A stretch of DNA of 39,484 nt, taken from positions 1 through 39,484 of the IMG/VR virus record IMGVR_UViG_3300046689_000328, one strand, 5' to 3'. Position 1 is the first letter of the stretch; each line of letters opens with the position of its first letter. The notes beneath the pieces were generated by a model. That model saw only the letters and a program-made list of their open reading frames with translations. It searched no databases and was not told the origin of the DNA. Made by a program: the position numbers and the translations under genes. Shown in pieces: positions 1,280-39,484 of the stretch. This DNA comes from a virus.

Positions 1280-1283
1280 CCGC

Positions 1284-8905: not shown

Positions 8906-9127
8906 ATGCCGCTGGTCCTGGCACTGATGGTGTTGCTGCATCGGGCCGATGGCGGCGAGGTGCTTGTTGCTGGCCCCCAGATCACCAGCATGCACGCGGC
9001 GGCCCCGGGGGGCGGGAACAAAGTAGTAAATTCGGCAGCGCGTTGCGTCGTCTGGCTGACCGACGGGCGGGTGCTGTCCGTTATAGAGACATGCGAGGTC
9101 GTTCGCAGGTTGTTGGATACGCCTTAA
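8906..9127 (+). CDS. Conserved small phage protein, hydrophobic start
   Basis: A 73-residue protein with a short hydrophobic start (PLVLALMVLLHR) and a beta-like body (GGEVLVAGPQITSMHAAAPG, VVWLTDGRVLSVIETCEVV). The pattern of DGGEV, a conserved small strand, CVVWLTDG and SVIETC resembles small proteins that I believe occur near fibre genes of alphaproteobacterial phages, with no known function. The ribosome site is weak. It lies 22 bases after the fibre. Confidence 0.6.
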   Translation: MPLVLALMVLLHRADGGEVLVAGPQITSMHAAAPGGGNKVVNSAARCVVWLTDGRVLSVIETCEVVRRLLDTP

Positions 9128-9143
9128 CCCAGAGGAGAAGACC

Positions 9144-9518: not shown

Positions 9519-9533
9519 TAAGGGAAACTACCT

Positions 9534-12008
9534 ATGGCGGACTTCCTCGGCGGCCTGCTCAGCGGCGGCGGCGGCGGGCTCTACGACGACCTGCTGACGC
9601 CGCAGCAGCAGAGCCAACTGTCGGGCCGGGGGCTGCTTGCCATGGCCGGGGCCTTTGCCGACGCCGGGATGCCGAGCCGCCTGCCGATACCGCTCGGCGC
9701 GGCAATCGGCAAGGCGGCGGCGGCGATGGGCACGGGCCGTGACCAGGCGGCGCTGTCGCTCCTGAAGGCCGGGATGACAGTGCAGGAGCTAAAAGCTCTG
9801 CAGCAGAAAATGAAGCTCAATGAATCGCTGACGCCGTTTTTACAGCGCCTCGCTGCCGGCGGCGGCGGTGGCGTGCCGACGCCGACCGAGCCCGCTGAAA
9901 CGCCTGCCTCGGCCGCGCCCATCCCGGCTGCGCCGGTCGCCTCGGCTACTGATTTACCCCCTGGTGGCGTACCCCCCGGTTGGCCCGGTCCAGGCGCTAT
10001 TATCTTGGACGCCGGCGGATACGGCATGCCGCCTAGGCCAAAGCCCCTCCCTTGGACGGGCCTTACGCCTAGCGGCCCGGCTGCGTCACCGGCACTATCT
10101 GGCCCGCCAACGGAGGCCGAGCGTCAGGCGTGGATACAAAGTCGCGTGCAAGGCGGCCAAGACACCATCGAGGATTTTGTCGCGCGGTTTCGCGCTGGCG
10201 GCGGCACCGGGAAAGCCCCGACCGGGCTCCTGGGCCCCGCCCCGCCACTACCGGCGGGTGACGCGCCGCCACCGGATGTCCCGGGGGCCGGCGCCAGTCT
10301 CGGCGGCCTGCTGTCGACGGCCAGCTATGGAGGCGGCGCAAACGGCACGCCCCCTTTCGACCCTGGAGCGGGTGGGGATGACGAGGTCGGCAGCGGCGGG
10401 GGCGACACCAGCAGCCCAGAGTATCTCACTCGCCGAGCGCAGGACCTGGCGCTGGTGCGAAAATACGAAAGCGGCGACCGCAACATCATGCAGAACGTGG
10501 TCGGCCCACAGGGCGGCTATAACCCGAGCGTCGGGCGGGTCACCGGACCATCGAGCGCCGGCGGCTATTACCAGATGATCGACCCAACCTGGCGATCTGC
10601 CGCCAGTTCTGCCGGCATCGACACGGCAAAATACCCGAGAGCGATCGATGCGCCGCCCGAGCTGCAGACGAAGGCGGCGGAGGCGCTGTACGACAAAAGG
10701 GGGCTCGCCGATTGGGCGCCCTACAACAAGGTGCTGGCACGCAATGCGGGTTGGTCGGGTCCAATGGGGGACGGCGGCGGCTCCGGTGGTGGCGCTGCAC
10801 CCTTGGCAACCCCGCCCGGCGCCGGGGCGGCCCTGGCAACCCCACCCGGCGGTGGCATCATCCCTGGCACGGGCATGACGCCGCAGCAACTGGGCGCGCT
10901 CAACGCATTGATGAAGATGGGCGGGCTGGGTGACCCGTTTAACTCGCTGCTGGAGACCTATTACAAGTCGCCGGGGTATCTGGGGGAGGCGGCTGGAGCC
11001 TCGAAGCGTGGCGAACTAGGCGTAGAGCTTGAGCTTAGGCCGAAACTGGAAGCCGCCATCGCCTGGGCAAAGATCGATCCGAATATTAACGAGGCGGAGC
11101 GCAAGGCGCAGATCGACCGTTACTCCAAACTGTTGGAACAAACAACCGCCGCTCAAACCACCACGATAAAGGATGTGCCTGTCCTCGATCAAAACGGACA
11201 AACCGTTCTTCAGAATATGCTGCAGTCTGAAGTAACCCAAAACCGTGCCGACCGAGCAGCGCGCGCCGCCCGCGGCGACACGACGCCCCGCCCCGGCGAC
11301 ATCGTCGGAACGCCTTTTGCGCTTGGCACCACCCCGCCCGGTTACGAGTACCGGACGACGCCGCAAGGCACCCTTGCAGCGCAGCCGGTGCCTGACACAC
11401 CGGCCGCGCGAGAGGCCCAGGATGTTCTCAGGAGGCAAAAGCAGTCCGATCTGCAATTACAGGTTTCACGCGACATTGTGATGCAGAATAGCGACCGCAT
11501 CGAAAACCTAGTGCAAAACTCTGCCTTGCCGACCACGGGGGCGGGTGGCGCATGGCTGTCGAGACTTGGCGGCACCGCGGCCAACGATGTCCGGGTTATG
11601 GTCGAAACCCTCAAGGCTCGCTCATCCCTTGATGCGCTTAACCAGATGCGGCAGAGCAGCCCGACCGGCGGGGCCTTGGGCAACGTCAGCAATGCGGAAG
11701 GGGATCGCCTCGCCGCCGCCTTGTCTAATCTCGACCAATCACAGAGCCAGGGGCAATTCCTGTTCAACCTGCGGCGCGCCAAGCAGGCCTACGTTGATGC
11801 GGTACACGGCCCAGGTGCTTATTCGGCGCTGTCCGATGCGCCTGCCCTTAAGGTGCCGAACGCAGGCGCTGGGGCAGTGGCGCGTCCGGAAGGCTCAACT
11901 GACGCGACGCTGCGGTCCGAGGCTGCGGCGGCTATCGCCGGCGGCAGATCGCGCGCGGCCGTGATCGAGCGGCTGCAGAAAATGGGCGTCAGCGCGGAGG
12001 GCCTCTAA
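9534..12008 (+). CDS. Internal virion protein with lytic transglycosylase-like domain
   Basis: An 824-residue protein. The first ~110 residues are small-residue-rich with predicted helices (LTPQQQSQLSGRGLLAMAGA). Residues 130-300 are Pro/Gly-rich linker. Residues about 305-410 resemble lysozyme/transglycosylase folds: KYESGDRNIM with candidate catalytic Glu312, then SAGGYYQMIDPTW and a WAPYN motif near the end. Residues 480-824 are helical with coiled stretches. This design fits an ejected protein that opens peptidoglycan during DNA entry, as in T7 gp16 or P22-type ejection proteins. It overlaps the next gene by one base. Confidence 0.75.
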   Translation: MADFLGGLLSGGGGGLYDDLLTPQQQSQLSGRGLLAMAGAFADAGMPSRLPIPLGAAIGKAAAAMGTGRDQAALSLLKAGMTVQELKALQQKMKLNESLTPFLQRLAAGGGGGVPTPTEPAETPASAAPIPAAPVASATDLPPGGVPPGWPGPGAIILDAGGYGMPPRPKPLPWTGLTPSGPAASPALSGPPTEAERQAWIQSRVQGGQDTIEDFVARFRAGGGTGKAPTGLLGPAPPLPAGDAPPPDVPGAGASLGGLLSTASYGGGANGTPPFDPGAGGDDEVGSGGGDTSSPEYLTRRAQDLALVRKYESGDRNIMQNVVGPQGGYNPSVGRVTGPSSAGGYYQMIDPTWRSAASSAGIDTAKYPRAIDAPPELQTKAAEALYDKRGLADWAPYNKVLARNAGWSGPMGDGGGSGGGAAPLATPPGAGAALATPPGGGIIPGTGMTPQQLGALNALMKMGGLGDPFNSLLETYYKSPGYLGEAAGASKRGELGVELELRPKLEAAIAWAKIDPNINEAERKAQIDRYSKLLEQTTAAQTTTIKDVPVLDQNGQTVLQNMLQSEVTQNRADRAARAARGDTTPRPGDIVGTPFALGTTPPGYEYRTTPQGTLAAQPVPDTPAAREAQDVLRRQKQSDLQLQVSRDIVMQNSDRIENLVQNSALPTTGAGGAWLSRLGGTAANDVRVMVETLKARSSLDALNQMRQSSPTGGALGNVSNAEGDRLAAALSNLDQSQSQGQFLFNLRRAKQAYVDAVHGPGAYSALSDAPALKVPNAGAGAVARPEGSTDATLRSEAAAAIAGGRSRAAVIERLQKMGVSAEGL

Positions 12009-14131
12009 TGGGCGTCTTCGACGATCTGCCGATGGAGGGGAGGCCGGCTGGCGCTTTTGATGATCTGCCGATGGAAAAGGGCGGGCTCAACCAGCGCGCC
12101 GGAAGTTTTGCTACCGGAGCCAACGCGGCTATCGCGGCAACCCTGGGCGCGCCGTTCGATCTTTCGGCGTGGCTGGGTAATCAGGCTGCCAAAGGCATTA
12201 ACGCGATCACCGGCAACCAAACAGTAGCGCCGGTTACCCGGCCTTGGTTGGGCTCTGAGAACATCAGTGATTGGCTGCACGGCGCGGTCGGCGAGACCAA
12301 ACCCAAGGACGAGATCGATCGCCTCCTGTACGGCGCGGGAGTCGGAGCCGGATCGGCCGTCTCCGGCATGGGCATCGGCGGTGCTTTAGGTGCGGCCGGT
12401 AGGGCGCCTGCCCTGGCTCGCATGCTGATGGGCGGCGAGGCAAGCCTTCCGACCGCGCTCGGTAATGTTGCAACCGGAGCTGGAGGCGGGGCCGGGTCAG
12501 TGGCTGGCGAGGACGCGGCCGAGGCTGTGGGCGGTGGCCCGCTCGCTCGTTTTCTCGGGGGCACGGCAGGCGGCCTTTTGGGCGGCATTACCGCCGCCAC
12601 GGTTCCGACTATCCCCGGTAATCTCTACAAGGCCGGACAGGCGGCGGTTAGACCGTTCACCGAAGAGGGCCAGCGCAACATTACTGGGCGTCTCCTAAAC
12701 GAGAGCGCCACCTATGGCGTACCGGACCCGTTAACGCCGCCTCTTGGCATCAATCCGACCTTGGGGCAGGCCAGCAATGATCCGGGGCTTTTGTCGTTGG
12801 AGCGTAGCGTCCAACAATTAAGTCCGGGTGTTTCCGGGAGATTTGCCGATCAAGCCACCCGAAACAATCAAACAATACTCGAAGCGTTCGACCAACTGGG
12901 CCAGCCGGGGCAACGACGCCCTTACGAAATCTCGCAGCAGGCTGCTGCCGGATTGGAGGCCAATCGAGCGGCCGGCCGAGCAACGGAACGGCAAGCCTGG
13001 GAGGCTATTGATCCCACACGGTCGGTTAATATCCCGATGCAGCCGATCCGGGATCGGATGAATGCTTACATCGATGATCTGACCATGGCTCGCCGGCCTT
13101 TGGTGCCGGACGACATCATGGCGATGATCAGCCGCGGCAACGCCGATACGTTGCCGATGCGGGAAGTGCAGGACATCCGATCAGCTCTGACGACGCGCGA
13201 GAGGATCGCCCGCCGGGCCGGGGAAGTTAACCAGGCCGACGTCCTGCGAAACCTGGACGAGGCTTTGTTCCAGCGTCTGCCGGAAGGCCAGATCCAGATG
13301 CCGACCGCCGATCAGGCCGCGACCCTGCGCTACCAGAACGCCCTGGACGCCTCCCGGCAATACAACCAAACATTCAACCGGCCACCTATCAGTAACATCT
13401 TCAAGGTCGAGGGGACGCCCGATAGTGCCGTCCTAGATAAAATGTTGTCCCCTGGCGCGGGGCAGTCGGAGCGGGTCGGGCAGTACGTCGCAGCAACAAT
13501 GCAGAACCCGGAATTGCTGCAACACGGGCGGGATTGGTTCACTGCCAAAATGCACGAGGCATTGTCGGGGGCACGCCAAGATGCCCAGGGGGATCAGTTC
13601 ATTCTGGGCGACAAGATGCGAAAATTTGTCGATAGCAACAGCGCCCTGCTCGACAGCCCACTGTTCACCCCCGACCAGCGGCGGGTGGTCAATGAGTTGG
13701 TCGATGCCGCAACCATGGTCGAGCGCACCGGGCGAGCGGGCGCGCAAGGCGGCTCTGACACGGCAGCCAAACTGGCCGGGAAAAACTACATTCAAACAAT
13801 GGTCGGAAGTTGGTTCCAGCCGGTGCGGGCGGCAGAGGCGATCGGTGCGGGCGCCGGCTTGATGACGCAAGGCGGATGGAAGGGCGCCCTTGGCGGCTTC
13901 GCTGTCGGCAACCGCGCCGGCACTTGGGCGGCAGATCAGGCTTATGCGGGAGCGCGCGACAAGGTGACGGCGCTCTTGGCGGAGGCTATGCAGGACCCGG
14001 CTTTTGCTGCGGAACTCATGCGAAGCGCGCAAGGACAAAACGCCCAGTTCGCCAGCCCCCGCATGAAGAATTTCTTGGCCACAATGCCGGCTGCTGGATG
14101 GACAACAATGCAGATCCCAGGCTCGCCCTAA
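12008..14131 (+). CDS. Large DNA-ejection (internal virion) protein
   Basis: A 707-residue protein starting with a doubled FDDLPME motif (residues 4-10 and 17-23), a signature that I have seen at the N-terminus of phage DNA-injection proteins. Residues ~105-200 contain Gly/Ala-rich hydrophobic stretches (GAGVGAGSAVSGMGIGGALG, GGTAGGLLGGI) that could insert in a membrane. Residues 230-600 are helical and charged. The last part has another Gly/Ala segment (AAEAIGAGAGLMTQGG). I infer formation of a channel across the host envelope for DNA entry. Coupled by TAATG to the preceding gene. Confidence 0.7.
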   Translation: MGVFDDLPMEGRPAGAFDDLPMEKGGLNQRAGSFATGANAAIAATLGAPFDLSAWLGNQAAKGINAITGNQTVAPVTRPWLGSENISDWLHGAVGETKPKDEIDRLLYGAGVGAGSAVSGMGIGGALGAAGRAPALARMLMGGEASLPTALGNVATGAGGGAGSVAGEDAAEAVGGGPLARFLGGTAGGLLGGITAATVPTIPGNLYKAGQAAVRPFTEEGQRNITGRLLNESATYGVPDPLTPPLGINPTLGQASNDPGLLSLERSVQQLSPGVSGRFADQATRNNQTILEAFDQLGQPGQRRPYEISQQAAAGLEANRAAGRATERQAWEAIDPTRSVNIPMQPIRDRMNAYIDDLTMARRPLVPDDIMAMISRGNADTLPMREVQDIRSALTTRERIARRAGEVNQADVLRNLDEALFQRLPEGQIQMPTADQAATLRYQNALDASRQYNQTFNRPPISNIFKVEGTPDSAVLDKMLSPGAGQSERVGQYVAATMQNPELLQHGRDWFTAKMHEALSGARQDAQGDQFILGDKMRKFVDSNSALLDSPLFTPDQRRVVNELVDAATMVERTGRAGAQGGSDTAAKLAGKNYIQTMVGSWFQPVRAAEAIGAGAGLMTQGGWKGALGGFAVGNRAGTWAADQAYAGARDKVTALLAEAMQDPAFAAELMRSAQGQNAQFASPRMKNFLATMPAAGWTTMQIPGSP

Positions 14132-20285: not shown

Positions 20286-21332
20286 TCACGTTCTGCCAAA
20301 CGCCTTGCTGACAGTTGCCATTGCCGCCTTCGCCATGCGTCCACGATCTGCGGCATCGGCATAGCGCTGCACTTCGGCGAGCGTCTGGTGCCCGGTGATA
20401 GACGCGATCTCGTGCGCCGAGCATCCGGCCTCGGCGAGCCGGCGCGCCTGCGCCTTGCGCAGCCCGTGCAGCGAGCAACCGGGTATCCCCGCATCGCGGC
20501 ACCATTCGCGGAAACGGTTGCCGAGCCCATCCGGCGAGAACTGGGTGCCGGTGCTTGTCACGAGGAACAGTGCGTTCGTCGGTGAGGCGGCGAGCACGGT
20601 GAACAAGTCGGGATGCACCGGCATCGCGACGGGCGAGCCCGTCTTCTGTTGGGTATATGTAAACAGCCCGTTGCGGATGTGCTGCGGCCCGATCTTGATC
20701 AGATCGCTGCGGCGGGCTGCGGTGTTCAGCGCCAGTTCGAGCGCGAGGCGGGCCGTCGAGCCGACAGCGTGGAAAGCCCGATAGGCGGCAATCTCATCCT
20801 CAGTCCACGAGTGGATGCCGTCCGACTTGCCGCCGGTCTTGCGTGGCGGCTTCAGCGCGGCGGCCGGATCATCGGCGATCAATCCCGTGAGTGCCGCAAA
20901 GTGGCAGAGCGCCTTCAGCGCGTAGAGCATCTGACGAGCCGAGCCCGGCTTCATCCCGGCGAGAATGCTATTGATGTGCTGCGGGCGCAGCGCGGCGATC
21001 GGCTTGGTGCCGTGCTCTTTCCTAAACAGTTCGAGCGACTGCCGGCGGGTGTCGCGTGAGGTGCGCGCCAGCGAGGTAAAGCTCTCGTGCCCGTACCAAC
21101 CCACTATCGCGGCGTCGATGCTGCCTGAGAGCGTGCGCGTGGCCCCTATGGGCCTTTTCGCTGCGGGAGTTGCAATGCCATCGAGCGCCGCGTGATATGC
21201 CGCCATGAACTCAGCCGAGCCGGGCCGCCCGTGCAGCGGGATGCGCTGGCCGCCGGGCAACCGCACATAGCGGCGCACCTTGCCGTGGCGGTCGGCGAAC
21301 TCGTGAACGTACTTCAAGCGAATTTGGGTCAT
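20286..21332 (-). CDS. int: Tyrosine site-specific integrase
   Basis: A 348-residue tyrosine recombinase. The N-terminal part is basic (residues 1-60), a SAM-like core-binding domain spans about 70-165, and the catalytic domain has Arg207 (TAARRSDL), Lys230 (QQKTG), His289/Arg292 (LHGLRKAQARRLAEAG), His315 (TGHQTLAEV) and nucleophile Tyr324 (QRYADAADR). All five catalytic residues are present. It should integrate and excise the phage. ATG 21332 overlaps the stop of the preceding small gene (ATGA). Repeat-rich DNA follows the stop, where attP is expected. Confidence 0.92.
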   Translation of the reverse strand: MTQIRLKYVHEFADRHGKVRRYVRLPGGQRIPLHGRPGSAEFMAAYHAALDGIATPAAKRPIGATRTLSGSIDAAIVGWYGHESFTSLARTSRDTRRQSLELFRKEHGTKPIAALRPQHINSILAGMKPGSARQMLYALKALCHFAALTGLIADDPAAALKPPRKTGGKSDGIHSWTEDEIAAYRAFHAVGSTARLALELALNTAARRSDLIKIGPQHIRNGLFTYTQQKTGSPVAMPVHPDLFTVLAASPTNALFLVTSTGTQFSPDGLGNRFREWCRDAGIPGCSLHGLRKAQARRLAEAGCSAHEIASITGHQTLAEVQRYADAADRGRMAKAAMATVSKAFGRT

Positions 21333-24621: not shown

Positions 24622-26019
24622 ATGAAGAAAATGAATATTGGGCCGAAGTCGCGATATCTTTTTTCGGTTCGTGCCGAGCGAGGGGACATCGTGCGGCTTT
24701 GCAGCGAGGCTGCGGATAACTCGCTAGATGCAATGGCGCAAAATATCCATATCGAGATCAGCGACACTGAAATCAAAGTCACAGATGATGGCGTTGGTGT
24801 TCTACTGAAATACGTCCCGGCATTATTTACGCTTGGTGACCACGCCCAACTAAAAAGCACAAAGCTCGGCCGCTTCGGAGTTGGCATTACCAATCAAGCG
24901 ATTAACGCGGCCGACGTGATGGAGGTACGATCCGTCTCGGCTGATGGTTGCTTCCTCTGCCGGGTGAATTGGCGTGACGTGTTGCGGGAGGGCTGGGAGG
25001 TCGATGTTCCAGTGAGATTGCCAATGGTGGTTGGAACGCCGACTGGCACGGTAATCAAGCTCTCGATATTACGGAAGCTGAAGCAGTTCACCATCGACAG
25101 AGTCGTCGAGGATCTGGCGCAGAGTTTTTACCCGGCAATCGCAGAAGGGCGAACAATACGGGTGAACGATGTTACGGTGCCACTGCTTGCCGACCCACCG
25201 ATGGTCGACATTGTGGAGCATCGGTTCGAATTTTCAGACGGCCGGTTTGCTACCCTGCACGCTGGGCTGCTTGCGCAGCCGTCGAAGGTTAACCGGGTTC
25301 ACGTTGGCTTCGGGCACCGCGTAATAATGCCGAGCAGCACTCTGGGTTGCGGCACTTATACCGGGCTCTCGAATATGTTCGCGCGCGTGCAACTAGGTGG
25401 CGCGCGTTGGGCTCTCGCTACATTCAAAAACGACATCACCGACGAAAATCAACGCGAGGAGCTGGAAGACGCAGTCGAAGCCGCGATGACTCCGATATTG
25501 ACGAAATGCGGTAATGTTTCAATGGAGGCGCGGGTAGCTGCGATCGGCGAATTGGTCAACAGCATGCTGCCGGAGGAGTTGGCGGCAGCGCGCCCGCATC
25601 ACGGAAAGAAAGAAGGCAAAAATCCCGGCAATAAATCCAGCAACAAGCAGGGGATTACCGATATAGAGAGGTCCGATCCGGCTGACGGCCCAGCAAAGGC
25701 GCGACGAGCGCCGCAGAAGGACCGACTGCTCATTACCTTCGAGGGCCGCGACAAGGATCACGGCATTGGGTGGTTCGATCCCGGGCGCACAAACCGCGTA
25801 CACCTTTCGCGAGATAACCCGCAGATAGCACAACTGTTCCAGCAACGAGATGACAGGTTTGTCGCTAAGGCGATCGTAGTCATTGCGCTGATGTTGTTTG
25901 AACAGGGGCGTGAGGAGGCAAACCCACAGCTAGAATTTAAGCTGCAATCCTTTGGCCTGCGTGTTGCGCACCATTTGGCGATGGATAACGTCGCGAGAAT
26001 GCCGAAGCAGGCCGGATGA
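24622..26019 (+). CDS. Stand-alone GHKL ATPase (MORC/MutL/Hsp90-like)
   Basis: A 465-residue protein with a full GHKL ATP-binding site: motif I Glu29...Asn33 (EAADNSLDAMA), motif II DDGVG (Asp55, Gly57, Gly59), motif III LGRFGVGIT (Gly83, Gly86, Gly88) and motif IV TGTVIKL (143-149). Residues 150-310 resemble the second, transducer domain. A Lys/Pro-rich linker (325-365) precedes a ~100-residue C-terminal domain. There is no kinase H-box or MutL endonuclease motif. Such proteins bind ATP with dimer closure to clamp DNA or partners. The gene is visibly more AT-rich than its neighbours. It overlaps the 26016 frame by ATGA. Confidence 0.8.
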   Translation: MKKMNIGPKSRYLFSVRAERGDIVRLCSEAADNSLDAMAQNIHIEISDTEIKVTDDGVGVLLKYVPALFTLGDHAQLKSTKLGRFGVGITNQAINAADVMEVRSVSADGCFLCRVNWRDVLREGWEVDVPVRLPMVVGTPTGTVIKLSILRKLKQFTIDRVVEDLAQSFYPAIAEGRTIRVNDVTVPLLADPPMVDIVEHRFEFSDGRFATLHAGLLAQPSKVNRVHVGFGHRVIMPSSTLGCGTYTGLSNMFARVQLGGARWALATFKNDITDENQREELEDAVEAAMTPILTKCGNVSMEARVAAIGELVNSMLPEELAAARPHHGKKEGKNPGNKSSNKQGITDIERSDPADGPAKARRAPQKDRLLITFEGRDKDHGIGWFDPGRTNRVHLSRDNPQIAQLFQQRDDRFVAKAIVVIALMLFEQGREEANPQLEFKLQSFGLRVAHHLAMDNVARMPKQAG

Positions 26020-31044: not shown

Positions 31045-31448
31045 CCGTAAAAGACTGGATCGAGCGGTTGAGCGAATTCCCCCCTCACTGGCAAGTGCAG
31101 GTGGCAACCCCAGCAGGCGGACCGATCGCAATAGAGCACCGCGAAATATACGGTAATCCCGTTGTAGCCGTGTTCGGCAGCAACGGCGGCCGGTTTGGAG
31201 AAAACCCCCTGACCGAAGCAGAATACAAAAAACAATCCCAGAACTTTATCCGGAAAATGAACAACGGGTATATTCATACCACAATACACGGCGATCACAG
31301 ATTGTACCGGCCAACCGGCCGTATAAACGACACTTGCTACGGAGAGCACTTCGACGAGCGCGTTATAAATAGAATGCACGCCGACGGCCTATTGCAGGAC
31401 AATTACCAACCGACGCAGCACGCCGCGCTCCAGGGCGAGGACGCCTAA
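31041..31448 (+). CDS. Hypothetical protein before terminase
   Basis: A 135-residue soluble protein (KDWIERLSEFPPHWQVQVAT, then NPLTEAEYKKQSQNF and a Gly/His/Tyr-rich middle). It is visibly more AT-rich than the genes before it. ATGA overlap with the previous stop. No family recognised. Confidence 0.6.
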   Translation: MTVKDWIERLSEFPPHWQVQVATPAGGPIAIEHREIYGNPVVAVFGSNGGRFGENPLTEAEYKKQSQNFIRKMNNGYIHTTIHGDHRLYRPTGRINDTCYGEHFDERVINRMHADGLLQDNYQPTQHAALQGEDA

Positions 31449-31453
31449 CGCCG

Positions 31454-31936
31454 ATGGCTGCTAAGCTGCGCCGTGGCGGGCGTAACGGCTCGCAGCCGGT
31501 GTATACGCAGGCGCTTGCTGATGAGATTTGTGATAGGTTGGCGGATGGTGAACCGCTGAATGTCATATGCAAGACGCCCGGTATGCCGTGCTTTAAGGCG
31601 GTGCTCAACTGGGTTAGGGACGAGAAGAGGGCGCCAGGGTTCGGTCAGAGCTACGCACGCGCAAGGTCGATCGGTTACGAGCGAATTGCCGATGAGGTGC
31701 TTGCGATCAGTGACACCGATTGCCTCGGCCCGAACGGTTATGTGGACAATGCTGCCGTTCAGCGTGCCAGGCTGATGGTGGAGAGCCGTAAATGGATGCT
31801 CTCAAAGATGCTGCCTAAGATATATGGCGACAAGATAGAACTCAGCGGTGACGCATCGGCGCCACTGCTGACTCGCATCGAGCTGGTGGCGGTGCGGCCG
31901 AAACAGATCACGATCGATGGGTCTGATGATGGGTAA
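31454..31936 (+). CDS. terS: Terminase small subunit (Sf6-type)
   Basis: A 160-residue protein. Residues 15-75 form an HTH-containing DNA-recognition domain (YTQALADEICDRLADGEPLN, VICKTPGMPCFKAVLNWVR) and residues 75-130 a central helical oligomer region (YARARSIGYERIADEVLAIS, RARLMVESRKWMLSKMLP, then KIYGDKIEL), as in Sf6-like small terminases. It recognises the packaging site and activates the large subunit. Unusually, the large subunit gene is about 6.8 kb downstream. Confidence 0.8.
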   Translation: MAAKLRRGGRNGSQPVYTQALADEICDRLADGEPLNVICKTPGMPCFKAVLNWVRDEKRAPGFGQSYARARSIGYERIADEVLAISDTDCLGPNGYVDNAAVQRARLMVESRKWMLSKMLPKIYGDKIELSGDASAPLLTRIELVAVRPKQITIDGSDDG

Positions 31937-32229
31937 TAGCGGCGCACTGGCCTAAACCCCAGCATTTCTGCGGCACGGCGGCGGATGGGATATCCGCCTC
32001 GCCCCTCGCGTACGCGTATAGAAGACAGCCGCCGTCCGACACCCTCAAACGGATGGTTCCATACTGGCGGCGGCGTGGGCCCCACCCACCCCCACCTTCA
32101 CCCCACCCCACCCGAATATTTTTTTTTGCAGCGCAGCACAAGTCGCCGCAACCCTGGCGTGTCCGGGCGCTTCCTTTATATACCGCGCGCTGCGCACACC
32201 CGCGCGCGAGACCCTAATGAGAGAGCCGC
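31937..32229. promoter_or_regulatory. Non-coding region with strong G-quadruplex motif
   Basis: 293 bases without a convincing gene. At 32080-32113 the plus strand has C-runs of 4, 3, 5, 4, 4 and 3 separated mostly by single A bases, so the minus strand carries six closely spaced G-runs, a strong G-quadruplex motif. Nine T bases follow at 32119-32127. A GC-alternating stretch with GCGCGC lies near 32185-32210. It may be a packaging start, replication pause or promoter element. No terminator hairpin is linked to the T-run. Confidence 0.55.
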
Positions 32230-32586
32230 ATGAAACCTGGTCTTTTGGTATTCGCTGCGCTCATGCTGTGTCTTATGGCGCTTCCTGCCTCCGCGCAGAA
32301 CGCATTCGCCCCCGGCGGCCCCACGGTATCGCTGGCGGTAACCGGCATCACCGGCCGCGTGCAGGTGCAGACGGCAGCCAACAGCCCGCACATGCGTATA
32401 TATAATAGCGGCACGGTAGCCGCCTTCGTCGCCTGCGGGGACGTAACCGCCGCAGCCACCCTCGCCACCGGCATGCCGGTAGCCCCGGCATCCGTCGAGG
32501 TGATCGGCTGCACCCAGCAGTACATTGCGGGCATCTCGGCCGGCACCGCGGCCACGATCTACATCACGCCGGGGGATGGGCTGTAG
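32230..32586 (+). CDS. Small exported protein with Sec signal peptide
   Basis: A 118-residue protein with a textbook signal peptide: KPGLLVFAALMLCLMALPAS with likely cleavage after Ala-Ser-Ala at about residue 22. The mature part is a beta-rich domain of ~95 residues with two Cys (VACG, VIGC) and repeats of small residues (ATLATGMPVAPASVEV, TAATIYITPGDG). An export signal is unusual for a phage structural protein. It heads a cassette of signal-bearing proteins between terS and terL. Confidence 0.75.
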   Translation: MKPGLLVFAALMLCLMALPASAQNAFAPGGPTVSLAVTGITGRVQVQTAANSPHMRIYNSGTVAAFVACGDVTAAATLATGMPVAPASVEVIGCTQQYIAGISAGTAATIYITPGDGL

Positions 32587-32589
32587 GCG

Positions 32590-34239
32590 ATGCGCCGTCG
32601 CTGGTTTCTGGCGGGGTTGGCGGCGGCGATAGCCACGGTCGGTGTATCGGCCGACGCCCGGATGCACGCGCCGTATCGGGGCCACCGGATAATCCCGGCG
32701 AATGCAGCCCCCCTGGACGGGTTCACGACCCCCTCCGGCGCATATTCTTTCCGGAAGCTGCGCAGCACCTATGCCGGTCCGGCGGTAAAGCTGCAGCGCG
32801 TGGACACCACGACGAGCGATATCGGTTTTACCGCCACCGGCGACTTCGACACGGCAGCCGCCACCGCTTTCTGCACCACGGCGTGCACGGTAACGACGTG
32901 GTACGACCAATCCGGCAACGCCCGGCACCTGACGCAATCAACCGCGGCGAACCAGCCGGCTTACGTGGCCAACTGCAGCGGCAGGCTGCCGTGTCTGCGG
33001 GTGACGTCCGGCACGATAACTCTGGCGACGACCGGCAGCACGACGCCGGCGACCGGCAAGATGAGCTTTAGCGCGGTTGGCAACCGGAGTGCCGGGACGG
33101 CGCAGTGTTATTGGCTGATCGGCAATTTCGGCGGCACCAGCAACCGGATCACCTCGGCCAATGCGGCGGCGCAGTGGAGCGTGCTCGACGGGACGCTGGG
33201 CGTTAACGGCGCCGCCGCCAACGCGGCGTGGCACGCGGCGACGGGGGCGCTGAACGCGGCGGCGAGCTACATCAACATTGACGGCGCGGTCGCCTCCGGC
33301 ACGACCAACAGCAACAACGTGGCGGCGGGGACTGGGGTTATCACCGGCACGGCGGCGACGACGTGTGACGAGAGCGAGGCGGTGCGCTGGGACAATTATA
33401 TATTGACGGCGCCGGAGGCAGCGGCGCTGGTGGCGAACCAGCGCGGGTACTGGGCGGCGTTGCCGCTGGATATGCTGACCCAGCCGAGCGGCGCTTACGG
33501 AATGCGCAAGCTGCTCTCGGGTTATGCCGGCAGCGCGATCCGCCTTCGGCGGGCCAGCGACCAAGCGGAGCTTGATATCGGCTTTGTCGGCTATGTGCCG
33601 GGCCTCGGCAGCCCGGTAGATGTAGCCGCGGCGAACGCGCACTGCGCGAGCACCACCTGTTTTGGCTCCAAATGGTACGACCAGAGCGGCAACGCGCGTG
33701 ATCTGGTGCAGGCGACGGCAGCCAACCAGCCGCAGCTCATATTCAACTGCCAGGGCACTTTGCCGTGCTGGCAGTACACCGCGAACACGCAGGTGTTGCA
33801 GGCCTCCGCCACGATCACCCCGGCCACCGGCACGGTATCCTTTAGCGCGGTCGGGCAGCGTAGCGGCGGTATCGGGAGTTTCAGCCTGATCTCCGAGAAC
33901 GCCGCCGCCGGCAACCGCGTCGCGATGGCGGGCACCACCGACACCTGGGGGGTGTTTGGCGGCAGCAGCGGCAACGTGACGGCGGCCGGGGCGACCGAGG
34001 GTGCCTGGCACGCACTCAATGCCGTGCTGGCCGGCGCTTCGAGCGTGATCAGCATCGATGGTGTGGAAACAACCGGCACGGCAACGGGCTCTGTCACGGC
34101 GGCCCTGCCGCGCATCACCGGGGCGCCGTCGCCGACGATAGCCAACGAGGTCGAGGCGGTGTTCTGGGACAATTACAGCCTCACCCCGGCCGAGCGCGCG
34201 GTGCTGGTGAATAACCAGCGCGGGTTTTGGGGCTTTTGA
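32590..34239 (+). CDS. Exported tandem arabinofuranosidase-B-like protein
   Basis: A 549-residue protein starting RRRWFLAGLAAAIATVGV, a Tat- or Sec-type export signal with cleavage near residue 22. Two ~255-residue repeats follow, each with YAG.A..L.R, a DIGF strand, a Cys pair, KWYDQSGNARDLVQATAANQ or the equivalent, and SFSAVG. They match the catalytic-domain fold of alpha-L-arabinofuranosidase B (GH54, concanavalin-like) as I know it. Each repeat has conserved Cys pairs (NCSGRLPC, NCQGTLPC). Binding or cutting of an arabinose-bearing polysaccharide is inferred. No virion-attachment domain is visible. Confidence 0.65.
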   Translation: MRRRWFLAGLAAAIATVGVSADARMHAPYRGHRIIPANAAPLDGFTTPSGAYSFRKLRSTYAGPAVKLQRVDTTTSDIGFTATGDFDTAAATAFCTTACTVTTWYDQSGNARHLTQSTAANQPAYVANCSGRLPCLRVTSGTITLATTGSTTPATGKMSFSAVGNRSAGTAQCYWLIGNFGGTSNRITSANAAAQWSVLDGTLGVNGAAANAAWHAATGALNAAASYINIDGAVASGTTNSNNVAAGTGVITGTAATTCDESEAVRWDNYILTAPEAAALVANQRGYWAALPLDMLTQPSGAYGMRKLLSGYAGSAIRLRRASDQAELDIGFVGYVPGLGSPVDVAAANAHCASTTCFGSKWYDQSGNARDLVQATAANQPQLIFNCQGTLPCWQYTANTQVLQASATITPATGTVSFSAVGQRSGGIGSFSLISENAAAGNRVAMAGTTDTWGVFGGSSGNVTAAGATEGAWHALNAVLAGASSVISIDGVETTGTATGSVTAALPRITGAPSPTIANEVEAVFWDNYSLTPAERAVLVNNQRGFWGF

Positions 34240-36107
34240 TGCGGCGCTGGCTTGCCCTCGCAGCCGGCCTGCTGCTGGCGAGCCCGCCGGCGGCGGCGGA
34301 TATGTTTCAGGACGCCACCAACGCCAAATTGCCGGATGCCCGCTACAACCTCAACCTCGGCACGGCCGCGACACCGCTGGACTTCGATCCGCTGTGCGAC
34401 GGCAGTGCGGCCAATGCAACGCACGACTGCAGCGCGGCGATTGCGCAGGCGTTGACTGTCACCCGGAACGGCCAGGCGGTGAACGTGTACCTGCCGGCCG
34501 GGCGGTACTACGTGAAGAACCCGATAACCATCGTCGATGGCCGGTGCCTCTCCGGCGACAGCCGCCGCAACACGTTTCTGCACATCGATCAGACCTTCAG
34601 CCCGGCGGCGACCGGGGTGGTAAACCTGAACTACCCCCAGGTCGGCGACGGGTTTGCCAAATACACGCCCTGCGTCAAGGATCTGGCGTTTGAGTTCGAC
34701 CAGCCGAGCACCCAGGGCACGAGGGCGAACTTCGCGGTCTTGGGGTCCTGTACGAGTGGCGCTGGCGGCACTGGGTGCAAATATCCACCGGCGATTTATC
34801 AGCCGGTGGCCCCGGCAGCGGGCGGCATGACGATCCAGAATATTCGGATCGAGCGGGCCTGGGACGGTATCAACCTGCAGCACGCCAGCAGCATCGACAT
34901 CGAGAACATCGAGGAGTCGAGCCTCAACGTCGGGCTGACCTTGGAGAACGGGCACAATTTCGGCCACGTCTCGCATTGGGTGCATTACGGCTGGGGAATT
35001 GACGGCGCCAGCGCGCTTTATACCGGGGTATACGAGGACGGCAACGCCTACGCCGCCAAGATCGGCGCGTTGGATGGCGGGGTGATCGACGATTTCCGCA
35101 CCTGGGAGGGACGGGTTGCGCTGACCGCCGGGTTCAGTTGGGGATTGGTCAGCAATCTGGCGCTGGACGGCAAGAACTCGACATTGGAGGTAGCGCACAC
35201 CAGTGCCGGGATTGGGTTGATAGCATCCAACGTGTACGCAACCGGCAGTGCCGTGGGTGCGAACACGCATTGCCAGATCGACATTGCCTCGGGCTCGCAA
35301 GCGGTGACGATCAACAATCTCGTGGCTGGCACGGCGAACAATGCTGGCCCGTCGGCGGTGTGCGTGGCCGGCGGGGTTGTGCAGATCGCTGGCGGGTTGA
35401 TAGGCAACGGCTCGACCGGGGCGCCAAGCGTCAAGGTGACCGGCGGGCAGGCCAAGTTGACGGGGCTAGTGTTCAACAGTCTCAACCAGACCTATACCGC
35501 GCCGCTGATCAGCGTGGCGGGCGGCAGCATCACGGCGACCGGCAATACGATCAAGGACCTGCCTTTCAATGCCGCCAATCAGTGGATCAACATCGCGACG
35601 GACAATGCGCTGAATTACGTCGAGGGCAACCAGTCGAGCGGCTGGGCGGCGGCTTTAGGGTTCGCCACGGCGCTTGGGTACTACGATTTCGGCGCTTACA
35701 AATTCACCGACATGGTGGTGACGCCGGGTTTTGCGACGCCGGGAGATTTTGCCCCGACCAGCGTCTCGACGGGCGGGTGGTACTACCGACGCGGCAACTA
35801 TGTTGAGTTTTTGCTGACGAGCACGTTCAACGCCAATGCGTACACGACGGCGAGTGGCGCGTTCAGCCTGGCTTATACCGGCATGCCGGGGGCACAGGGG
35901 CCGGCTGGGTTTAACAGTTGCACGCTCAATTTTGTCGATAAGGTCACGTTTACCGGGTTTCTGACGTGCAGTGTGCTTAGCAGCTCGATCGCGCCATCTA
36001 CCAACCTTACGGGCGCGCTGCACGGCAGCTTGACGACGACGGGTGTCCCGGCCGGGACGACGGCGGTAAAGTTCGGCCTGTCGGGCCGGTACATGGTGCG
36101 CGGATGA
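34239..36107 (+). CDS. Exported pectate-lyase-like beta-helix protein
   Basis: A 622-residue protein starting with a signal peptide (RRWLALAAGLLLASPPAAAD, cleavage after AAA). Residues 40-110 have a pectate-lyase-superfamily start (FDPLCDGSAANATHDCSAAI, VNVYLPAGRYYVKNP), then long beta-helix rungs of short Asn/Gly/Ile/Val-rich strands (IQNIRIERAWDGINLQHASS, IDIENIEE). The C-terminal ~150 residues form a separate beta domain. A polysaccharide depolymerase or adhesin function is inferred. It overlaps the previous stop by one base (TGATG). Cys pairs (CDGSAANATHDC, CTSGAGGTGC) suit an oxidising compartment. Confidence 0.65.
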   Translation: MRRWLALAAGLLLASPPAAADMFQDATNAKLPDARYNLNLGTAATPLDFDPLCDGSAANATHDCSAAIAQALTVTRNGQAVNVYLPAGRYYVKNPITIVDGRCLSGDSRRNTFLHIDQTFSPAATGVVNLNYPQVGDGFAKYTPCVKDLAFEFDQPSTQGTRANFAVLGSCTSGAGGTGCKYPPAIYQPVAPAAGGMTIQNIRIERAWDGINLQHASSIDIENIEESSLNVGLTLENGHNFGHVSHWVHYGWGIDGASALYTGVYEDGNAYAAKIGALDGGVIDDFRTWEGRVALTAGFSWGLVSNLALDGKNSTLEVAHTSAGIGLIASNVYATGSAVGANTHCQIDIASGSQAVTINNLVAGTANNAGPSAVCVAGGVVQIAGGLIGNGSTGAPSVKVTGGQAKLTGLVFNSLNQTYTAPLISVAGGSITATGNTIKDLPFNAANQWINIATDNALNYVEGNQSSGWAAALGFATALGYYDFGAYKFTDMVVTPGFATPGDFAPTSVSTGGWYYRRGNYVEFLLTSTFNANAYTTASGAFSLAYTGMPGAQGPAGFNSCTLNFVDKVTFTGFLTCSVLSSSIAPSTNLTGALHGSLTTTGVPAGTTAVKFGLSGRYMVRG

Positions 36108-36769
36108 CCCCTGGCAGTTACGACCTGTGCATCTACCGGGGCGACACCGGGCGCTGGCGGTTTATCTGCTGGCAGGACGCGGCCAAGACCATGCCATCGG
36201 ACTTTACCGGGGCGAGCGCCGCGGCGCAGATCCGCGACCGGCCCGGGGGCAACATGGTGACCCAGCTTTATTGCGGCGTCACCGCGCCCAACACGGTGGA
36301 TGTGGCGGTATTGGCGGTCGACAGCGCGCTCTTGCCGCCGCGTGGGGTGTGGGACCTGCAGTTGACCTACGCCAGCAGCGACATTCGCACCCTGGTGGCG
36401 GGCAAGGTGCTGGTGACGGGCGACGTGACGCAAGCGCCGGTATCGGCCGGCATTGCCGCGCCGGCCCCCGCCGGCCCGGTCCGGGTGGTGTACCCGGTGA
36501 GCGGCGAGACCATCATCATGGGGTCGGAGGTGGCATTGCATGTCGCCACCGGCCCGCTGGCGGCGCTGACGATACGGTTGCCACCAGGCCCGGCGCTCGG
36601 GGTCCTGGTCGAGATCTCGTTTGCCTTGCCGGTGACGGCGCTGACGATCGAGGACGCGGCCGGGCACCCGGTGGCGGGTGCCCCCGATAGCGGTTACGGC
36701 CCGGGGGCGGCGCTGGAGATGCGCTACCTTGAAGGCCCGCCCGGTATCGGCTGGGTATCCTGGAAATAG
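36104..36769 (+). CDS. Fibre/baseplate-like beta-sandwich protein
   Basis: A 221-residue protein without a signal peptide. The first ~110 residues (YDLCIYRGDTGRWRFICWQD, FTGASAAAQIRDRPGG, VWDLQLTY) resemble N-terminal Ig-like domains of phage tail appendage proteins (BppU_N-like). A Pro/Ala linker leads to a second beta domain (ALTIRLPPGPALGVLVEISF). Such proteins usually connect fibres to the tail. It overlaps the preceding stop (ATGA). Confidence 0.6.
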   Translation: MTPGSYDLCIYRGDTGRWRFICWQDAAKTMPSDFTGASAAAQIRDRPGGNMVTQLYCGVTAPNTVDVAVLAVDSALLPPRGVWDLQLTYASSDIRTLVAGKVLVTGDVTQAPVSAGIAAPAPAGPVRVVYPVSGETIIMGSEVALHVATGPLAALTIRLPPGPALGVLVEISFALPVTALTIEDAAGHPVAGAPDSGYGPGAALEMRYLEGPPGIGWVSWK

Positions 36770-36770
36770 A

Positions 36771-37157
36771 ATGGCCGACACCGTAGCGATCGACATCGTC
36801 GCAACGCCGACGCCGGTGATCGAGGTCATCGCCGGGGTCGGGCAGCAAGGCCCGCCGGGCCCGGCTTGGCAGCCGGGGTTCACCAGCGTGACCGGCTCGG
36901 GCGTTCTGCCGGCCGGGACCAACGGGCTGGTGCTGGTCGACACCACGGCGGCGCCGCATACCGTGACGTTGCCGCCGGCGCCTGCCCTTGGCCAGTCTCT
37001 GACGATAAAGGACGCCAACGGGTTTGCCGGCAGCGGCAACCCGATCACCGTGGCGGGCGGCGGTTTTACCATCGAGGGGGCGCTGAGCCTGGTGATCGCC
37101 GCCAATTACGGCTGGGTGCAGCTTGCTTTTGCTGGCTCTGCCTGGGTTCAGGTCTGA
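36771..37157 (+). CDS. Collagen-like phage appendage protein
   Basis: A 128-residue protein starting at ATG 36771, one base after the previous stop; the open frame further left shadows that gene. Residues 24-30 hold a short collagen-like GQQGPPGPA stretch, followed by a beta domain (TLPPAPALGQSLTIKDANG, GGGFTIEGALSLVIAANYGW). This is the style of short phage fibre parts. It overlaps the next start by one base (TGATG). Confidence 0.6.
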   Translation: MADTVAIDIVATPTPVIEVIAGVGQQGPPGPAWQPGFTSVTGSGVLPAGTNGLVLVDTTAAPHTVTLPPAPALGQSLTIKDANGFAGSGNPITVAGGGFTIEGALSLVIAANYGWVQLAFAGSAWVQV

Positions 37158-38581
37158 TGTCGCTGGGGAGTGCCCTCGCCGCGCTCCTGCTGTTCGCTGC
37201 GCTCACGCCGGCACTGGCGCAGCAGGTGCCCAACCCGATGAGCCGGGACGTCGAAAAAGTCTATTACCCCTATGATTTTGGCGCCAAGTGCGACGCCACG
37301 GCGCAAGCTGGCGGCGGCGCCGACGACACCGCGGCGCTGAACGCGATGTTCGACGCCATCCGCACCGCGGCGCAGCCGTTCCGGGTGGCGGCGGCCGGCA
37401 AAACCTGCCGCATCTCGTCCACGCTCAACGCCACCAGCTTGCGCCAGGTCGGCGACCAGAACCGCAGCCCGAGCACGATTCAGTTGCGGCTGTACTGCGC
37501 CACCGGCGGCACCCCGTGCATCGACGCGCTCAACACAAGGTTTATCACCTGGGAGCACCTGTACATCAACGGTGCGGCGACGGGCTCGCCTAGCATCGGC
37601 ATTCAGTTCGGCCGCAGCGCCGGCCTGGCCAACGCCGACATGAATGTATTTAACCAGCCCTACATTACCGGCACGTTCACCAAGGCTGGGGTTTACAACT
37701 ACGCGGCGGAGCAGACGACGATCGTCGGCCCGTTTGTCTCCAACGCGGCGACCACGGTCGGCAGCTATGGCTGGATGGAGGACGCCTGCAACAGCGTGCC
37801 GCTGACATCGGCCTTTGCTGCCGCGCCGGCGGCAAACACCTGTGCCAGCCACAATAGCACCACCTTTGTCGGCGGGTGGCTTACCGGCGATGTCCCGCTC
37901 TTCCTCAGTGGCACGCAAGGCAGCAAATTCATCAATTCTTATCTCTATACGACGGGGAATTTGTGCGCCGCGGCGATCTATCAAAACGGCGCTACCTTTA
38001 GCCGCGGCCTTGATCTCGACCTGATCCTCGAGATCAACCCGGCGAGCTTTATTTGCCTGCGGTCATCGACCAGCAGCATCAAATTGCAAGGATTGAAGCT
38101 GAAGAGCTTTGTCGTGCCGGCGACCGGAAGCGTGTTTAACACGGCGGCGGGGATCACCTCCGTCGTTGCTCGCGATCTCCATCTGAACCTCTCCGAGGTC
38201 TATCCGGGGCTGGTGTTGTTTTCCAACCCCGCCTTGTGGACCGTTAGCGGGCTCAGCGGGTTCCTCAGCGGCGACATGACGTATAACGGCTTGCCACCGA
38301 GCCTCAGCGGCAATCTCTGCCTGCAGAACGATGCCAGCGGCATCGACAAGTGCATCGCGTATTCGCGCGGCGTCGGTTGGCAGGGGGTGGACGACATCCT
38401 GGCTTATGTGATCCCGCGCACCGTGGCGCAGCTCGCCGCGGCGCATCCCTGCGCCACCAGCGCCGGCTCGACCAGCATGGTGTCGGACGCCCTGGCCCCG
38501 GCCTGGCACGCCGCGGTGGTTGGCGGCGGGGCGGTGCTGACGCCGGTTTACTGCAACGGCACCAACTGGGTGGCGTATTGA
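37157..38581 (+). CDS. Exported beta-helix tailspike-like protein
   Basis: A 474-residue protein with a signal peptide (SLGSALAALLLFAALTPALA, cleavage before QQ). Residues 35-110 carry a pectate-lyase-superfamily start (YYPYDFGAKCDATAQAGGGA, DDTAALNAMFDAI), then beta-helix rungs to about 400. The last ~50 residues hold DALAPAWHAAVVGGGAVL and YCNGTNWVAY, related to the end of the tail protein at 4614-4907. It has many Cys residues. Fits a depolymerase or spike, but the export signal is atypical. TGATG at 38579-38583 couples the next gene. Confidence 0.7.
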   Translation: MSLGSALAALLLFAALTPALAQQVPNPMSRDVEKVYYPYDFGAKCDATAQAGGGADDTAALNAMFDAIRTAAQPFRVAAAGKTCRISSTLNATSLRQVGDQNRSPSTIQLRLYCATGGTPCIDALNTRFITWEHLYINGAATGSPSIGIQFGRSAGLANADMNVFNQPYITGTFTKAGVYNYAAEQTTIVGPFVSNAATTVGSYGWMEDACNSVPLTSAFAAAPAANTCASHNSTTFVGGWLTGDVPLFLSGTQGSKFINSYLYTTGNLCAAAIYQNGATFSRGLDLDLILEINPASFICLRSSTSSIKLQGLKLKSFVVPATGSVFNTAAGITSVVARDLHLNLSEVYPGLVLFSNPALWTVSGLSGFLSGDMTYNGLPPSLSGNLCLQNDASGIDKCIAYSRGVGWQGVDDILAYVIPRTVAQLAAAHPCATSAGSTSMVSDALAPAWHAAVVGGGAVLTPVYCNGTNWVAY

Positions 38582-38754
38582 TGAGCGAGGACGCGCATTT
38601 GGCGCTGTCGGAGGCGGCGGTGTTGCGCACCCAGCGCAATAACCTGCTGGTGCGGGTGCTGGATCTCGAGGTCGAGGTGGCGTTGCTGCAGGACGAATTG
38701 AAACGGCTGCGGCGCTGGCCGGAGCGGCCGGAACGCCTGGCGGCGGTGGAATGA
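38581..38754 (+). CDS. 57-residue coiled-coil protein before terL
   Basis: A charged, Leu-rich helix (LSEAAVLRTQRNNLLVRVLD, LEVEVALLQDELKRLRRW) with a clear heptad pattern, likely a coiled coil. The ATG overlaps the previous stop and the stop overlaps the terL start (ATGA). It may multimerise or assist packaging or fibre assembly; unknown. Confidence 0.65.
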   Translation: MSEDAHLALSEAAVLRTQRNNLLVRVLDLEVEVALLQDELKRLRRWPERPERLAAVE

Positions 38755-39484
38755 GCACGGCGCGCGTTCGGCGTGACGCCGTGCACCAGGCCGGCCGCAT
38801 CGAATTGCCGGAAAAACTGGTTAACATCTTCGACGGCCCGGCGCTCTACCGCTGCGCTTTCGGTGGCCGGGGCTCCGGAAAAAGCCGGGGCTTCGCAACC
38901 ATGGCGGCGGTGCACGGGCTGCGCTGCGCCCAGGCCAACGAAACCGGGGTCATTTTGTGCGCTAGGGAGTTTCAGAACTCGCTGGACGAAAGCAGCATGG
39001 CCGAGGTTAAGGCGGCGATCGAGACCCAGGCGTGGCTGGCCGCGCAGTATGAGGTTGGCGAGAAATACATCAGAACCCGCGACGGCAAGATCGAGTTTGT
39101 TTTCGCGGGATTGCGCCGCAACATCGAAAGCGTGAAGTCGACGGCGCGGATACGGCTGCTGTGGGTCGATGAAGCGGAGCCGGTTAGCGAAGTCGCCTGG
39201 ATGAAAGCCGTCCCCACCGTGCGCGAGGAGGGCGCTGAAATCTGGGTGAGTTGGAACCCGGAGCGCCGCCAGTCGGCGACCAACAAGCGGTTCCGGATCA
39301 ATCCGCCGGCCAATAGCAAGCTGGTGGAGCTGAATTGGCGCGACAACCCGTGGTTTCCGAGTGTCCTGCAGCAGATCCGCCTGGAAGACAAGGAGAAGAG
39401 GCCGGATCAGTACGAACACATCTGGGAAGGCGCTTACGCCAGCGCCCACGCCGGCGCCTACTACTCCAGCCACCTGGCGGAAGC
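38751..39484 (+). CDS. terL: Terminase large subunit, N-terminal part
   Basis: The first 244 codons, cut by the window edge. Walker A GGRGSGKS (38-45), Walker B LLWVDEAE (136-143; Asp140, catalytic Glu141) and a WVSWNPER coupling motif identify the packaging ATPase of the Terminase_3/6 type. The C-terminal RNase H-like nuclease lies outside the window. It powers DNA packaging through the portal. The ATG overlaps the coiled-coil gene stop (ATGA). Confidence 0.9.
   Translation, partial: MSTARVRRDAVHQAGRIELPEKLVNIFDGPALYRCAFGGRGSGKSRGFATMAAVHGLRCAQANETGVILCAREFQNSLDESSMAEVKAAIETQAWLAAQYEVGEKYIRTRDGKIEFVFAGLRRNIESVKSTARIRLLWVDEAEPVSEVAWMKAVPTVREEGAEIWVSWNPERRQSATNKRFRINPPANSKLVELNWRDNPWFPSVLQQIRLEDKEKRPDQYEHIWEGAYASAHAGAYYSSHLAE

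Follow-up and report, generated by a model that had tools for sequence, protein, structure and literature searches.

The window, the whole 39,484-nucleotide stretch that we analysed, comes from an uncultivated soil phage group, and the cassette described here lies within the operon for virus particles. The cassette interval is bounded at its 5′ limit by the gene for an Sf6-type small terminase, terS (31454..31936, + strand; PF20901, E 3.6e-33; phrog_1482, E 6e-34), and is followed downstream by terL (38751..39482, +; PF04466, E 3e-25; phrog_3717, E 3.7e-59), which is cut by the contig end. All six open reading frames that the initial annotation had placed between them were found where described, all on the + strand; we designate those with predicted export signals S1 to S4 and the two others U1 and U2. 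The genes overlap at their start and stop codons, on the same strand, through an ORF for a coiled-coil-like protein of 57 aa (38581..38754, +; homologues immediately 5′ of terL in L002 and L007) that joins the cassette to terL. As had been stated, terS and terL are normally adjacent, and the closest isolates, KLEP18-1 and pCB2047-A, have no such cassette between their terminase genes: a single HNH gene separates terS and terL in KLEP18-1, and just small genes lie 5′ of terL in pCB2047-A, none of them annotated there as terS. The 293-bp gap before the cassette holds a conserved non-coding element (32050..32145, no strand assigned), ATGGTTCCAT..CTGGCGG..GGCCCCAC..AATATTTTTTTT, which is kept in L002 and L097 and, in looser forms, in L009-L013, L017, L020 and L074, and which is possibly a late promoter, a terminator or a cos/pac site. 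An Rfam search gave no match, and the cassette DNA had no similarity to any of 50,697 phage records.

About 20 related contigs in IMG/VR share the order terS-cassette-terL, which the initial annotation proposed to seek in related phages. Elsewhere among the relatives, the cassette follows terL or a capsid gene, or lies next to a tail-fibre gene, and sequence comparison identifies it as a recurrent unit at several genome positions. One option raised at the outset was lysogenic conversion or superinfection exclusion, in which a prophage would send these proteins to the cell surface, where receptors would be remodelled or masked. The phage does have an integrase gene (20286-21332), and the gap with its conserved element ahead of the cassette would suit such a role. 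Nevertheless, this option is disfavoured because the translationally coupled cassette continues, via the 57-aa ORF, into terL, so that terL would be co-expressed. Moreover, no sigma-70-like promoter was found across 31400-32700, a search of defence models gave no match, and the cassettes of relatives stand among terL, portal, MCP or tail genes. Judged by gene overlap and the promoter scan, the cassette probably does not have the transcription apart from late genes that marks a moron, and we regard lysogenic conversion as improbable.

Signals were scored with a home-made predictor (basic n-region, hydrophobic core, −3/−1 rule; cut-off 10). The claim that four of the six proteins combine export signals with cysteines was borne out, with scores of 13.9 (32230), 12.2 (32590), 10.9 (34239) and 10.8 (37157) and with 2, 10, 10 and 12 cysteines, respectively, in the mature proteins, all even numbers; 36104 and 36771 have no signal. 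The virion genes at 323-14131 differ from these four, as claimed, in that none scores as high as 9. When the N-terminal 45 residues of cassette proteins were shuffled, the cut-off was reached in 8.6% of trials. The Tat label held for 32590 (MRRRWFLAGL), whereas the signal of 34239 (MRRWLALAAG) could be of either the Sec or the Tat type. The n-region of 37157 is weak, with no basic residue ahead of the hydrophobic core, but its relatives do have a basic n-region (MRRLAALLLAAG..., MTRALALLLAL...). Among non-redundant relatives, 24/26 for S1, 37/39 for S2 and 26/27 for the S3 motif were signalled at the cut-off, as against 0/70 controls (U1 0/15, U2 0/9, MCP 0/8, terL 0/12, terS 0/22, TF 0/4). 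A signal peptide is predicted in all 34 members of the S3 motif family, and when proteins were collected by a DNA pattern for the mature motif that is blind to signals, all 25 motif proteins were preceded by a signal, with the predicted cut exactly before DMY in 21 of them. In S1 the signal sequences have diverged (median identity 0.32), whereas the mature parts are conserved (0.63).

Among mature cassette proteins with at least two cysteines, 109 of 112 have an even count, compared with 128 of 226 controls (Fisher p ~1e-17). S1 homologues without a signal lack C69, S2 homologues without a signal, from Gordonia, Aphanizomenon and Arthrobacter phages, lack the aligned cysteines, and the partner cysteine of S1 is shifted by four residues in L025, L032 and L076. 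There are thus three independent lines of evidence (signals kept in diverged relatives, the even-cysteine bias, and cysteines in signalled versions only), and because of these we consider it almost certain, as far as sequence can tell, that the cassette proteins are exported and form disulfides. An alternative is that the N-termini are hydrophobic segments for assembly or membrane interaction that are retained on virion proteins. Some S3 forms, with a short core ending LLLRADMY and no classical A-X-A site, agree with this idea; however, most members have a cleavage site exactly before the conserved block, the signal sequences vary yet keep their properties, and the even-cysteine pattern would be left unexplained, all of which makes a retained segment very improbable.

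S1 (32230..32586, +) has a predicted cut at A22/Q23, followed by a beta domain of about 96 aa with one cysteine pair, C69 and C94. Its model (pLDDT 89) matches many Caudovirales proteins of about 100 aa; matches of the fold to the PDB were weak and likely due to chance, none having E ≤ 0.001, while tblastn against phage records gave no match and a scan of bacterial genomes no relative. S2 (32590..34239, +) has a Tat-like signal (A23/R24), 10 cysteines, of which C95, C99, C129 and C135 are invariant, and two tandem ConA/ArabFuran-like domains that appear as an internal repeat with a spacing of 774-777 bp. We rejected an arabinofuranosidase activity (alpha-L-arabinofuranosidase B) because the PF09206 profile is covered in part only, in two stretches of which the best spans profile positions 19-89 of 315, with no full catalytic domain. 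Homologues of S2 are annotated as minor tail or virion structural proteins; the S2 profile had no match in six genomes with related terL genes. S3 (34239..36107, +; cut A20/D21; mature start DMFQDATNAKLPDARYNL; 10 cysteines) has a pectate-lyase-like beta-helix tailspike body that matches PF12708 above the cut-off (E 6.6e-8) and is 25-26% identical to the annotated tail spikes H18 and H19. No further full-length homologue of S3 was found in the viral contigs scanned, and PDB sequence searches with S2 and S3 gave no match. S4 (37157..38581, +; cut A21/Q22; mature start QQVPNPMS; 12 cysteines) has a tailspike-like body with a weak tail-spike match (phrog_20911, E 0.0095), and its mature-start motif is common to many signalled cassette proteins. 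ARxNLG, a tail-fibre-type motif, comes after the cleavage site, and one mature N-terminal motif precedes swappable, unrelated bodies across cassettes. The bodies of S1-S4 are, by these matches, tailspike- and lectin-like. Homologues without a signal reside in ordinary virion operons, and prophages of Methylobacterium have recognisable tail fibres (Gp53-like_C) with signals.

The suggestion that the unsignalled proteins are partners of the others gained support. U1 (36104..36769, +) has an N-terminal domain that resembles, in a predicted model, a T5-type fibre-anchoring collar, and a swappable C-terminal tip domain of about 95 aa, which L014 and L018 carry as a fusion with a tail-adaptor-like protein. 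With a model of moderate confidence (pLDDT 68), Foldseek gave 7qg9_L (E 1.3e-4) and 8hqz_Q (E 2.8e-4), the best PDB matches ranging from E 1.3e-4 to 7.9e-4 with TM of only 0.30-0.45; U1 also matches phrog_3304 (E 0.0032). U2 (36771..37157, +) is a small fibre-like protein with a GPPGP linker that matches tail-fibre and baseplate PHROGs weakly. Only some of the cassettes include U1 and U2.

Sequence analysis supports the export signals, the site of cleavage, the adaptation to disulfides, the homology to tail proteins and the place in a late operon. Two readings of exported proteins of this kind have to be weighed. The main rival is that S1-S4 are soluble exoproteins, freed at lysis, that loosen capsule or biofilm by binding or degrading glycans and are never part of the virion. 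The evidence for export and disulfides fits this reading equally well, Tat-exported bacterial trimers of tailspike fold that modify biofilm exist (WceF, PMC7949094), and one Tat-type cassette protein matches WbsX weakly, below the cut-off (E 3.8e-4). However, a complete catalytic domain was not recognised, the ArabFuran match being a small part of the profile. S1 is small, non-enzymatic and present in nearly every cassette, and S1-like proteins without a signal adjoin portal or MCP (L131, L162, L140, L143). U1 appears collar-like in its model, and the conserved mature N-terminal motifs ahead of unrelated bodies resemble docking modules. We therefore think soluble release rather unlikely, and lysogenic conversion less likely still.

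The other reading, to which we give an even chance, is that the cassette encodes tail appendages that fold in the periplasm and dock on virions at lysis. S1-S4 would be produced late in infection alongside packaging and virion proteins; Sec would export most of them, and Tat perhaps some. The signals would be cut exactly ahead of a short conserved motif, and the mature proteins would fold in the periplasm and form disulfide bonds there. U1, with its putative collar fold, and U2 would remain cytoplasmic and be built onto the virion. Upon lysis, periplasmic spikes would meet the particles and dock by their short mature N-termini, DMFQDATNAKLP being the candidate motif by which S3 would dock to U1. 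Granted export, docking itself could equally well be right or wrong; we infer it together with the timing and the glycan binding or cleavage. The full proposal, that two-compartment receptor-binding spikes combine cytoplasmic virion anchors with disulfide-bonded, periplasm-matured spikes attaching only after lysis, encoded by a mobile cassette in which bodies are exchanged after a constant signal-plus-docking module, falls a little short of an even chance. The initial suggestion that infected cells export glycan-binding or tail-like proteins is supported by the signals, the even cysteine counts and the cysteines of signalled versions; the suggestion of tail parts assembled through the envelope is the best fit among the options offered, though unproven. 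The exported spikes need not be the sole adsorption device, because the window phage has an ordinary S74 tail fibre (7720-8883).

In general, the tails of tailed phages are put together in the cytoplasm, and the adhesins of these phages are regarded as cytoplasmic structures that are complete before the cell lyses. Exported spike-like proteins are unexpected for this reason, and the papers searched held no description of, or precedent for, signal peptides on tailed-phage spikes. The "signal sequence" passages on JG068 were set aside, since they deal with an SAR endolysin. If the proposal is true, a virion is partly finished outside the cytoplasm and adsorption is linked to the Sec/Tat and Dsb systems of the host; alternatively, phages would have a set of glycan-active proteins that they secrete when the cell lyses. 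Both outcomes would alter the annotation of such genes and the production of recombinant spikes (periplasmic, oxidising). The signalled tail fibres of Methylobacterium prophages point to hosts that can be cultivated; one such Gp53-like fibre is that of L139, a prophage of Methylobacterium oxalidis NBRC 107715.

The known tailspikes are produced and put together inside the cytoplasm. Like the beta-helix tailspikes of the P22 gp9 type, S3 matches a pectate-lyase-like beta-helix family and annotated tail spikes, S4 having a weak PHROG match only; unlike them, the cassette proteins bear cleavable export signals, seen in 34/34 motif proteins and 25/25 of the signal-blind set, and paired cysteines. 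The minor tail proteins of Gordonia, Arthrobacter and Aphanizomenon phages share the WYDQSGN domain with S2 at roughly 30-50% identity, but none has an N-terminus scoring at least 10 and the aligned cysteines are absent. T5 is a siphophage, and we know of no export of its fibres. Its side fibres are grafted onto the collar, probably via about 50 N-terminal residues (PMC10038345), and the p132 collar/BppU N-terminal domain is the best fold match of the modelled N-terminal domain of U1, the extra C-terminal tip domain being U1's own. WceF of Pantoea stewartii is a protein of tailspike fold, exported by a signal peptide, that acts on exopolysaccharide (PMC7949094); unlike the cassette proteins, it is bacterial, stands outside any phage late operon, and is without a phage-type docking motif or cassette partners. 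The MAT fibres of Bdellovibrio are signal-bearing, phage-fibre-like adhesins with a conserved module right after the signal and variable tips (PMC10769870). Although these belong to a predatory bacterium and are not encoded beside terminase or virion genes, they have the same layout as the cassette proteins: a signal, then a conserved module, then a variable part.

All six proteins that the initial annotation had placed between terS and terL were found at their coordinates: the four described as signalled, S1 (32230-32586), S2 (32590-34239), S3 (34239-36107) and S4 (37157-38581), and the two without a signal, U1 (36104-36769) and U2 (36771-37157). With a simple home-made predictor (basic n-region, hydrophobic core, -3/-1 rule; cut-off 10), the N-termini of S1-S4 scored 10.8-13.9 as signals, and the virion genes all scored below 9. 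The earlier description of Sec- or Tat-type signals agrees with predicted export for all four proteins, with Tat convincing in S2 only; the weak point of the S4 signal is an n-region with no basic residue. After removal of redundancy, the cut-off was passed by 24 of 26 S1 proteins (the two others being the signal-less homologues L131 and L132), by 37/39 S2 proteins, by 26/27 proteins with the S3 motif, a conserved mature start (DMY...) directly after the predicted cleavage site, and by 0/70 U1, U2, capsid, terminase and tail-fibre proteins. When the threshold was lowered to 8 or 9, all S2 (39/39) and S3-motif (27/27) proteins passed, and so did one or two U1 proteins and one capsid protein. 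All remaining genes gave 37 signals in 514, and those of at least 150 aa were, by inspection, mostly further cassette members. A signal-blind search with a DNA pattern for DMY[QP]D..NAKLP, which ignored whatever precedes it, returned 25 distinct proteins, every one signalled, with the predicted cleavage exactly before DMY in 21. In S1 the median identity was 0.32 in the signal sequence versus 0.63 in the mature part, and the signal property was nonetheless kept. Sequence comparison thus supports the predicted export and cleavage site of the cassette proteins.

The number of cysteines was even in 109 of the 112 mature cassette proteins with at least two (counts span 2-18), versus 128/226 controls of at least 150 aa (Fisher p about 1e-17, which overstates independence because the sequences are related, yet the count varies widely with parity kept). 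The corresponding figure for U1 and U2 together with capsid and tail-fibre proteins was 5/12. All aligned S1 members with a signal have C69, which none of the three signal-less homologues has, and three S1 relatives (L025, L032 and L076) carry Ser at the C94 position and a new Cys four residues downstream. The aligned cysteines are missing from signal-less S2 homologues of Gordonia, Aphanizomenon and Arthrobacter phages. Predicted signal and paired cysteines go together in two unrelated families, S1 and S2, as expected for proteins relocated to an oxidising compartment, and a disulfide adaptation of the cassette proteins is supported by sequence.

The S1 model (pLDDT 89) gave 91 BFVD matches at E <= 0.001, and most of those listed are uncharacterised phage proteins, about 85-140 aa long. 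S1-like proteins without a signal are encoded next to a portal or capsid gene in L131, as well as in the Methylobacterium/Methylorubrum prophages L162, L143 and L140. S2 is an internal tandem duplication (spacing 774-777 bp), many of its relatives being single-copy (~290 aa), and its domain also occurs in annotated minor tail proteins. S3 is a tailspike-like beta-helix with which most other S3-type proteins have only the first 45-65 residues in common, their bodies being different. Their common mature start, DMYQDASNAKLPEARxNLG, includes ARxNLG, an element known from tail fibres. The top structural neighbours of U1 were tail-tip and baseplate chains of the T5 family, and L014 and L018 carry its C-terminal domain as a fusion with a tail-adaptor-like protein. 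The T5 collar, p132, on which the side fibres are grafted, is related to BppU (PMC10038345); we infer from chain length and the phrog_3304 match of U1 that chain 7qg9_L is p132. Homology of the cassette proteins to tail proteins is supported at the sequence level.

The 39,484-base IMG/VR record carries capsid, virion and tail genes at 323-14131 (including the phrog_1328 major head protein and, at 7720-8883, an S74 tail fibre), an integrase (20286-21332), a DnaB-type helicase (27449), terS (31454) and terL (38751 to the record end). Because terL is truncated and no portal gene was recognised, the record probably represents an incomplete genome of a temperate podovirus-like phage. The isolates nearest by TerL (62-67% identity), Sulfitobacter pCB2047-A/C, Paracoccus KLEP18-1 and Microcystis Mae-JY35, lack the cassette upstream of terL. 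Among bacterial genome records the nearest TerL is that of Bradyrhizobium pachyrhizi (63%), and an alphaproteobacterial host is our guess. In the early region, a 465-aa protein (24622-26019) carries a domain of the Hsp90-like ATPase type (HATPase_c_3, E 3.1e-9). No endolysin or lysis gene was recognised among the window proteins tested; the virion protein at 9534-12008 contains a weak transglycosylase-like match.

Viral contigs were scanned with TerL and with an S1 profile, which brought together more than 100 loci. The terS-cassette-terL order, which the initial annotation had proposed to seek in related phages, is present in about 20 contigs, as terS, a gap of ~300-900 bases, S1, S2, more signalled proteins and then terL; other contigs with similar TerL have no cassette and a terS-terL distance of ~1 kb. 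The S1-S2 block is recurrent at several genome positions, since it also lies downstream of terL (L100, L087, L046, L041), downstream of a capsid gene (L112) and beside tail-fibre or U1/U2 homologues (L125, L127, L129). In the after-terL variant, S1 is preceded by a signalled protein of ~220 aa with mature start DTIITFGQ and four Cys (L100:9264-9935, L087:2478-3149, L046:3577-4239, L041:3297-3968). Tat-type cassette proteins of ~390 aa with mature start QTTGVTPIF (L007:5816-6991, L032:8647-9840, L048:7407-8570, L083:14609-15784), one with a weak WbsX match below cut-off, are possibly glycan-active. In the window, the terS-S1 gap holds a strongly conserved non-coding block at 32050-32145 (ATGGTTCCAT, GGCCCCAC, AATATTTTTTTT), possibly a late promoter, terminator or cos/pac site.

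At the level of sequence, a coupling of the cassette to late genes is supported. Lysogenic conversion, one reading offered earlier, is disfavoured because of the coupling to terL. In the reading we favour, the cassette would be expressed late in infection and its exported proteins, which would bind glycans, would use their short mature N-terminus to dock on particles at lysis, U1/U2 serving as the cytoplasmic anchor. The main rival to such docking, plausible on sequence grounds, is that the exported proteins are set free in soluble form at lysis.

A cultivable test system may be provided by Methylobacterium prophages with signalled Gp53-like_C tail fibres. As an independent case, the M. oxalidis NBRC 107715 prophage encodes, in its virion gene cluster, a 657-aa signalled protein (L139:11487-13460) that combines fibre repeats and two Cys with a Gp53-like_C tip. 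The Methylobacterium genus search turned up a comparable Gp53-like protein with a signal in a second genome (L244), whereas most other Gp53-like proteins from this search lacked one.

The cassette components are of known kinds, and we found no description of signal-bearing spike cassettes of tailed phages in the open-access papers searched; if docking were shown, virions would be assembled in a new way. Exported proteins of tailspike fold or fibre type are known in bacteria, as in WceF (PMC7949094) and the MAT fibres of Bdellovibrio (PMC10769870).
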